The translations under genes were made by a program, and so were the position numbers. A stretch of DNA of 64,000 nt. Origin: Anaerolineae bacterium. GTDB lineage: Bacteria > Chloroflexota > Anaerolineae > Anaerolineales > Villigracilaceae. The stretch covers positions 1-64,000 of the forward strand of contig JABGOQ010000085.1 of the NCBI GenBank assembly GCA_018645405.1, in the 5' to 3' direction. Below, in pieces: positions 4,015 to 21,631 of this stretch. Position 1 is the stretch's first letter. Each line of letters begins with the position of its first letter. The notes beneath the pieces were generated by a model. It was not told where the DNA came from. It did no database searches and worked only from the letters and a program-made list of their open reading frames with translations.

Positions 4015-4716
4015 TTATCCAAATGCCTTTCGGAATTCATCGACCGCTTTCTGACCACTTCGTTCTAATCCATTATAAAAAGCCTCCCGATCTTGGCTGC
4101 GATAATCCAAACGCTCTACGTGGAAGGGAGCTAAGCGTTCTCTTGATTTTCGACGCTCACCAACGTTTAGAAAATAGATCAGGGCGTTTTCAACGCTCGC
4201 AGCGTCAGACCAATCGGATTTATAGATGGGGATTCCTGCTCGGTTAAATATCCACGTCATATTGGGCATAGAGCCATAGGTGCGGTGACAGGCTCCATCC
4301 AACGCATCAATCAGAATCGGACGGGTCACGCCCAAAACATCGCGTAAATCATGCGCGTTTCGCGTCTTCTGCTCCATTGAAGTCAGATGCGGATAATTTT
4401 CCCCCGGATGCGCTTCGTGGGTATAGAGAAAGATCGAGCCAACGCCTTGATCCGCGTACTGGTCGGCTATGGCATTCATGGACGGCGACGCCATCCCGCA
4501 GTAAGGTCAGGTAAAACTGCCAAACTCCACAACTGTTAGTTGATTCGCCGACCAAATTTCACTCAAGGACGTTTCGCTTCCATCCAACTGCCAGAGCGGG
4601 AAATCGGGCGAAGTTTTTCCGAGTGAAGGGCTGGAATCAAATTTCATCCAGCGTTCAAATTTCTCAGGAATAAATTCATCGTAATTGTACAGAGCTAATA
4701 ATTCATCGTTATTCAT
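4015..4716 (-). CDS. Deiodinase-family thioredoxin-fold selenoprotein with in-frame UGA (Sec70)
   Basis: The frame reads through one TGA at 4507-4509. Upstream is a 69-residue segment ending VVEFGSFT, downstream PYCGMASPSMNAIADQY, then FLYTHEAHPGE. Iodothyronine deiodinases have FGSxTUPP followed by YIEEAHPS at the same spacing, so the TGA falls exactly on the catalytic selenocysteine. Unlike vertebrate enzymes the motif is Sec-Pro-Tyr-Cys, giving a resolving cysteine three residues on, which suits a thiol oxidoreductase or peroxidase more than a deiodinase. A stem (GGAUGGC/GCCGUCC, loop GUC) begins 11 nt after the UGA, with its loop 18 nt on, as in bacterial SECIS elements. The start at 4716 is chosen because AGGAG precedes it; an ATG at 4740 is also in frame. 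There is no signal peptide. It is first in an operon with pgl and a GNAT gene. The alternative is a simple nonsense mutation. Confidence 0.85.
4480..4496 (-). promoter_or_regulatory. Candidate bacterial SECIS hairpin (deiodinase-like gene)
   Basis: On the minus strand the bases 11-27 nt after the UGA form a 7-bp stem (one G-U pair) closed by a GUC triloop. Seventeen nucleotides separate UGA and loop, the same spacing as in the E. coli fdhF SECIS as I recall it, and the loop starts with the G expected for SelB contact. Structure was judged by eye only. Confidence 0.55.
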
Positions 4717-4829
4717 ATATACTCCTAAGATTTGCGACATTTAATGTCTCAATAGTATCATAAGAGCGTTTTAGTAAGAAACTTTAGTTTGTCTCCGTCT
4801 ATATCGGGATGGAAATAAATGGAGAACTT

Positions 4830-19960: not shown

Positions 19961-20539
19961 ATGAAAAAGATATGGAAACCCCTCATCCTAATTCTTGTTG
20001 TTGGTGTATTGGCTGGAATTTTCTATTTCCAGACCCAATCATCTACGGCCAATCAGGTGAATTCCACAGATGGGCTCGTAACAGGAACGTCTATCGGTGA
20101 AATCGCAACCGATTTTAGAGGCACTACGCTTGAAGGGGAAACCATCAGTCTGAGCGATTATCGCGGCAAGATCGTGATGATCAATGATTTTGCTACCTGG
20201 TGTGGACCCTGTCTGTTGGAAACGCCCCATCTTGTAGAACTCTATAATGCAAAAAAAGACGAGGTTGAAATCATTGCCTTGAATATGCAAGAAAAGGAAT
20301 CGGATGTGGCGGGGTATCAGGATGAATTCAACATCACTTATTCGCTCGTGATGGACCCAAATGGAGAATTGACCGAAGGCATCTATAGACCAATCGGCTT
20401 GCCAACCAGTTGGTTCATTGATCCCGAAGGTGTCGTGCGATATGTACATTCCGGGCCGCTGACTGCCCCGATGCTGGAGGAAGTGATTGCCGCTCTCAAT
20501 GAAGGGCGCGAGCCGGATGTCTTTTCGGTTTTGAATTAG
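19961..20539 (+). CDS. TlpA/ResA-like membrane-anchored thioredoxin
   Basis: Thiol-disulfide oxidoreductase of the TlpA/ResA/AhpC-TSA group. An N-terminal hydrophobic anchor (7-23) places the domain outside the cytoplasm. The active site is FATWCGPC (C81 and C84), with the cis-proline in GLPTSWFID. At 192 residues it has typical length. The DUF3179 selenoprotein gene begins 6 bp after its stop, so the two are almost certainly co-transcribed. The obvious hypothesis is that this thioredoxin reduces or oxidises the Sec/Cys pair of that lipoprotein. Confidence 0.9.
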   Translation: MKKIWKPLILILVVGVLAGIFYFQTQSSTANQVNSTDGLVTGTSIGEIATDFRGTTLEGETISLSDYRGKIVMINDFATWCGPCLLETPHLVELYNAKKDEVEIIALNMQEKESDVAGYQDEFNITYSLVMDPNGELTEGIYRPIGLPTSWFIDPEGVVRYVHSGPLTAPMLEEVIAALNEGREPDVFSVLN

Positions 20540-20545
20540 GTTCAG

Positions 20546-21631
20546 ATGAAGAAGAAAACGCTGCAAATCTCCACTTTTATCTTCTTTCTCTCTCTCGTTT
20601 TGGCTGCCTGCACAGCGAGAGTAGAAATACCTTCAAATGCCACTCACGCACCTGTGTTTGAATCAACGCCTTCACTTGCTCTTGATCCTATAGTCACAGA
20701 AACACCTGCACCGGGCAACGACGCTCCCATCCCCTTCCCGACAAATATACGTATTGAAGATAATATCGAATATCAAATTCCCTTTATGCTGGGATTCGAT
20801 GCCATTCGCCCTGTCTACGCCCCAATCTTTGCACCTGCAAATGTCGCCCCCCTATTGGATGATGAATTGGTGATGGGTCTTGTCATTGATGGGGAAGCGA
20901 AAGCCTATCCCGTTACTGTCTTGCGTTTTCGAGAGATGGTTAACGATGAAATTGCGGGGTGGCCTGTTTTGGTCTCGTGGTGACCGATTTGCTACACCGG
21001 TCTCGTGCACGACCGGAGAATTGATGGCGTGATCCACACCTTTGGGAACGCTGGGTCACTGGTGATGAATGCTATGACCTGGTATGACCATGAAACGGAA
21101 TCAATCTGGTCACAGCCTTGGGGACGAGCGATCGAGGGCGAATATAAAGGCGTGCAATTGAATTTGCTTCCCTTTCAACTGACGACTTGGGAACGTTGGA
21201 AAGAAGCCTACCCACATACACTCGTGATGATCAACGATCTCGATCGAATGTCAGAATCCCGTCGGCAGGGGTTTCAGGCAGATTTTGTGATCGGATTGGT
21301 CTTGGTGGAGGAATCGAAGGCTTATTATTACACTGATGTTGAGAAATTGGGTGTGGTCAATGATACGCTGGCAAATACCCCGATCATGGTCTGGGCTGCG
21401 GATGAGATTTATCAGGCTTATCTCCGTCAGATTGATGGGCAGACGCTCACCTTCAGCTTTAACGGAGAAGAGCTTATTGACAAGGAAACTGGTTCTCGTT
21501 GGGACCCAGCTCTGGGGCTGGCACTTAGCGGGCCATTGGAGGGGAAATCGCTCAAGCCTGTCCCCAGCTTAAGTTCCTATGATTGGGCATGGAAGGATTT
21601 TTATCCAGAATCGGATTTTTACAAGCCGTAG
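20546..21631 (+). CDS. DUF3179 lipoprotein with in-frame UGA (Sec146)
   Basis: The frame continues through a TGA at 20981-20983. The first part starts with a lipoprotein signal (Cys22 in LVLAAC), giving an outward-facing anchored protein. The second part holds most of the DUF3179 domain (VHDRRIDGVIHTFGNAGSLV and onward). DUF3179 proteins usually have a CPxC motif after a PVLVT/SW strand; here GWPVLVSW is followed by TGA and then PICYTG, so UGA replaces the first cysteine and gives Sec-Pro-Ile-Cys. A 6-bp stem CCGGUC/GACCGG with an 8-nt loop starts 14 nt after the UGA. Codon usage and reading frame are intact on both sides. I believe Sec versions of DUF3179 have been annotated in databases, but the function is undescribed. 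It follows a TlpA thioredoxin gene by 6 bp. Confidence 0.85.
20997..21016 (+). promoter_or_regulatory. Candidate bacterial SECIS hairpin (DUF3179 gene)
   Basis: Positions 14-33 after the UGA form a perfect 6-bp stem CCGGUC/GACCGG closed by UCGUGCAC. The loop begins 20 nt after the UGA and contains G at its third position. Distance and size suit a bacterial SECIS; pairing was done by eye. Confidence 0.5.

Follow-up and report, generated by a model that had tools for sequence, protein, structure and literature searches.

The window, a stretch of 64,000 nucleotides from the draft genome of an Anaerolineae bacterium (contig JABGOQ010000085.1, positions 1 to 64,000), carries a DUF3179 gene with an in-frame TGA. 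A gene for a thioredoxin-fold protein lies directly upstream, and a second redox gene with its own in-frame UGA lies on the opposite strand. The features discussed below are as follows:

4015-4740, minus strand: predicted deiodinase-like redoxin selenoprotein gene, motif FGSFTUPYCGM (UGA at 4507-4509)
19961-20539, plus strand: TlpA/ResA-like thioredoxin-fold gene, 192 aa, with WCGPC and an N-terminal membrane anchor (open reading frame, motif, profiles)
20546-21631, plus strand: predicted DUF3179 selenoprotein gene, 361 codons with in-frame UGA (PF11376 match, homologue conservation, selection on both sides of the TGA)
20600-20611, plus strand: lipobox LAAC with putatively lipidated Cys22 (identified by eye in the sequence; Cys22 near-invariant in 35 homologues)
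20981-20983, plus strand: UGA codon, predicted Sec146, first position of UxxC
20990-20992, plus strand: Cys149 codon, putative resolving partner of Sec146
20997-21016, plus strand: SECIS-like hairpin CCGGUC-UCGUGCAC-GACCGG, at a fixed position in the TGA rows of the alignment
21263-21628, plus strand: second DUF3179 repeat, predicted Rieske-like fold without CxxC (hhalign, VIA, own Pfam match)

Re-reading the sequence bore out the layout given in the first-pass annotation: a 361-codon frame with a TGA at 20981-20983 in the motif GWPVLVSW-U-PIC, a lipobox, and a gap of 6 bp after the TlpA gene (which ends at 20539; the ATG is at 20546). The UGA is the first position of the CPxC motif of DUF3179. 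A family search with the full frame, which that annotation had proposed, matched Pfam DUF3179 with an E-value of 1.6e-61 (208.8 bits against a gathering cut-off of 27); the family is PF11376, and the number cited earlier, PF11329, was wrong. The C-terminal repeat, which lies entirely 3′ of the TGA, matches DUF3179 by itself (E 4e-13). Besides Cys22, Sec146 and Cys149 are the only Sec or Cys residues of the protein. The DUF3179 protein has no thioredoxin match, a search of solved structures by sequence found no relatives of it, and defence-system models gave no match.

The family has been catalogued before. Two reviews (PMC9312934, PMC13188914) tabulate DUF3179 (pfam11376, UxxC/T) as a selenoprotein family, first reported from a deltaproteobacterial worm symbiont, and cite Zhang and Gladyshev (2007), the Olavius symbiont study, for it. 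The selenoprotein kind is therefore not new, and the earlier description of the system as 'undescribed' does not hold. The literature passages on DUF3179 consulted here assign no function, and those from the 2026 review (PMC13188914), which also lists deiodinase-like selenoproteins, do not mention Rieske or Chloroflexi. The protein in the window belongs to the catalogued family and has Sec at the same first position of UxxC, but it comes from Chloroflexota and is described here together with its TlpA adjacency, hairpin and predicted fold. New here are the predicted tandem Rieske-like fold, the putative RNA insertion signal, and the TlpA and deiodinase-like gene neighbours.

Among 135 non-redundant homologues, the codon for residue 146 is TGA in ninety-four and Cys in forty-one, with no other residue present; since one of the searches behind the set was seeded with Sec forms, this ratio is no census. 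The homologues with TGA span several phyla, and Cys149 is kept in 135/135. The alternation of Cys and Sec anticipated at this site is thus present, and homologues with Cys are far from lacking. In 150 related genomes, the best matches have a single in-frame TGA at the identical site; four relatives with 55-69% identity share this lone TGA. A scan of named genomes found eighty DUF3179 loci, mostly in metagenome bins of Chloroflexota and Acidimicrobiia. When the Sec or Cys label is placed on the tree, it is clustered, with seven changes compared with thirty-five for shuffled labels; both forms have therefore been inherited, with several interchanges between them. The frame shows no decay after the TGA, an outcome that the first pass had named as fatal to its reading. 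A comparison of the window gene with its nearest relative gives a pN/pS of 0.153/0.682 before the TGA and 0.148/0.638 after it; because synonymous sites are close to saturated, these values are informative only as a contrast between the two parts. Purifying selection is the same on the two sides of the TGA.

The 6-bp stem reported earlier at 14 nt past the UGA is also there. It is perfect, pairing CCGGUC (20997-21002) with GACCGG (21011-21016) around an 8-nt loop. The set of six core pairs is complete in 87% of the TGA rows, compared with 1.8% expected under synonymous recoding; for the Cys rows the corresponding values are 2.4% and 0.9%. The position of the stem is constant while the paired sequences differ, with CCGGUC/GACCGG in the group of the window, CGGGAAU/AUUCCCG at the same place in the paralogue group and CGGCGAUG/CAUCGCCG at the same place in Acidimicrobiia. 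Nearly all hairpins in TGA rows have GU at a constant place in the loop, and folding energies agree with the hairpin. The hairpin fits a bacterial SECIS element and would be a putative target of SelB.

As for the Sec biosynthesis set that the first pass had called for, most of it was found: the source genome encodes SelA, SelD (with an in-frame UGA of its own) and a tRNA-Sec gene, but SelB was not found in the draft, which is 96% complete. A SelB candidate on contig C170 was rejected, as its sequence reads as IF-2. SelB scores above cut-off in 8/8 congeners searched, so an assembly gap is the likely reason for its absence. Sequence comparison establishes the Sec codon and its conservation, along with the hairpin and the greater part of the machinery, and 20546-21631 is almost certainly a genuine selenoprotein gene in which UGA is translated as Sec.

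The source genome has a second DUF3179 gene (contig C73, locus L023, 6528-7559) with UGA at the Sec site. This paralogue has a further in-frame TGA near its C-terminus (SSFUFGW), at a codon that is TGG (Trp) in the orthologue from genome G017, and no hairpin of note lies downstream of this second TGA. It may be a sequencing error, a late nonsense change or something else.

Structure prediction gave a pLDDT of 87 for the whole DUF3179 protein and 94 for the first repeat by itself. The two repeats match each other in hhalign (probability 99.9, E 8e-31), which identifies the two halves as a duplication. The structural matches listed for both repeats are Rieske-domain proteins. By VIA, the model of repeat 1 resembles the Rieske-type protein 3c0d (Z 8.7, 98 aligned residues, rmsd 3.6) and that of repeat 2 the Rieske ferredoxin 5bok (Z 9.2, 92 aligned residues, rmsd 3.0), these Z scores being just above the level often reached by models without a clear match. 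Foldseek E-values to Rieske proteins are weak (5.8e-3 and 0.47), hhalign detected nothing against two Rieske proteins of the source genome, and a Pfam search at E 10 listed DUF3179 as the sole family, with no Rieske. With modest Z scores, weak Foldseek E-values and no profile match, the link to the Rieske fold is likely but falls short of proof. The Rieske cluster ligands (CxH/CxxH) are absent, so the DUF3179 protein is not a Rieske iron-sulfur protein. Compared with Rieske-type ferredoxins, the likeness lies in the predicted fold of each repeat; DUF3179 differs in being duplicated, in having UxxC instead of CxH/CxxH and in the lack of detectable sequence similarity. The models thus describe what is likely a tandem Rieske-like fold without cluster ligands. 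We do not place UxxC at the first Rieske ligand loop, since the alignment ranges put it at an earlier point, close to the turn of the hairpin before that loop. In a library of viral folds, one match to the DUF3179 model fell below 0.001, a giant-virus protein (Indivirus ILV1, A0A1V0SD44) with a Foldseek E-value of 6.6e-8 and 12% identity.

TlpA-like proteins serve as reductants of extracytoplasmic disulfides. The gene at 19961-20539 is of this kind, with profile matches above cut-off to AhpC-TSA (3.5e-21) and Redoxin (3.3e-18); its best NCBIfam match is ResA, below the strict cut-off of that model. It would act in extracytoplasmic thiol redox chemistry as TlpA/ResA oxidoreductases do, whereas DUF3179 lacks a thioredoxin match and has a different predicted fold. 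The adjacency that the first pass had thought might be conserved is real, with a TlpA gene directly upstream of DUF3179 in three closely related lineages (the window, G017/L099 and L100), but elsewhere the neighbour is a deiodinase-like redoxin or neither. In seven other genomes (L027/L101, L029/L116, L103, L107, L108, L110, L139) a deiodinase-like gene with FGSFTUPYCGM lies directly 3′ of DUF3179; the product of 4015-4740 is 71% identical to it and is its orthologue. This deiodinase-like bacterial selenoprotein (PF00837) shares a UGA-encoded UxxC redox motif with DUF3179, but it has a thioredoxin fold and is not homologous. It also has no evident signal peptide, which would disqualify it as a direct partner outside the cytoplasm. 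A thioredoxin-fold gene adjoins DUF3179 in about half of the twenty genomes of the nearest clade, and in several of the remaining ones the DUF3179 locus is cut by contig ends.

Taken together, we lean slightly towards reading the DUF3179 protein as an extracytoplasmic selenol oxidoreductase that is recharged by the upstream TlpA. The ribosome would decode the UGA at 20981-20983 as selenocysteine. SelA and SelD would serve to charge the tRNA-Sec for this step, and SelB, bound to the hairpin 14-33 nt 3′ of the UGA, would deliver it. The protein would then be exported, with Cys22 as its anchor, and on the outer side of the cytoplasmic membrane its Sec146 and Cys149 would act as a redox-active UxxC pair carried by a tandem Rieske-like scaffold without iron-sulfur ligands. 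Because these two residues are the sole Sec and Cys besides Cys22, an intramolecular Se-S bond would be the natural oxidised state. This bond could be reduced by the membrane-anchored TlpA encoded directly upstream, and the substrate may be, at a guess, a peroxide or an oxidised thiol. We infer the export, the Se-S chemistry and the TlpA partnership. The missing SelB, the restriction of TlpA adjacency to close relatives, an alternative neighbour without evident signal peptide, weak Foldseek similarity to Rieske proteins and the lack of a profile match count against this reading. A selenol outside the cytoplasmic membrane requires a reductant, and the adjacency suggests a candidate. More tentatively, DUF3179 proteins at large could be extracytoplasmic selenol enzymes, widespread in Chloroflexota and Acidimicrobiia, in which UxxC on a duplicated Rieske-like scaffold replaces the cluster and TlpA-type proteins provide the recharge. 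The Sec form is present in many genomes of these groups, where annotation that takes UGA as a stop truncates the gene at its presumed active site. A mapped Sec site, together with the conserved RNA element, the fold prediction and the candidate partners, makes the function of DUF3179 testable.

A serious alternative, to which we give roughly a one-in-three chance, is that the protein contains Sec without having TlpA as its partner: the neighbours would be co-inherited redox genes, and reduction would come from another exported thioredoxin or from no dedicated reductant. The adjacency in only three lineages, the seven genomes with a neighbour lacking an evident signal peptide and the half or so of the nearest clade with neither neighbour (partly through contig ends) fit this alternative, while both kinds of neighbour are thioredoxin-fold redox proteins and the TlpA gene, only 6 bp upstream, encodes its own membrane anchor.

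It is improbable that the protein is a lipoprotein for binding or sequestration, in which Sec146 and Cys149 hold a metal or an electrophile (mercury or arsenic, for example) with no redox cycling. A soft metal could be bound by a UPxC pair carried on a beta scaffold, and passages of the 2026 review indicate that Sec may act as a metal ligand in some selenoprotein families (PMC13188914), but the neighbours are thioredoxin-fold redox proteins and not metal-resistance genes.

A reading of the TGA as a genuine stop, a lesion in a pseudogene or an error of sequencing is very hard to maintain. Standard annotation would terminate the gene there, and SelB is absent from the draft, but the same codon in ninety-four homologues of several phyla, purifying selection past it, the hairpin and the Sec machinery speak against this, and we rejected a broken gene or sequencing error on the grounds of conservation, selection and hairpin. 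Reassignment of UGA, or readthrough as another amino acid, is the least credible of all: the second TGA of the C73 paralogue does fall at a site with Trp in relatives, but we reject the idea because homologues have Cys alone at the main site, never Trp or Gly, a tRNA-Sec is present, and the window's ordinary genes have open frames under table 11.

In a divergent DUF3179 subgroup (L073, L074, L076, L077, L078 and L080, from several genomes of the same order), the motif is UVVC, UIVC, UPAC or UAPC, and all members have Sec. Two redoxin-like matches in the source genome, L183 (contig C116) and L184 (contig C154), have one in-frame TGA each and are possibly further selenoproteins of this bacterium.
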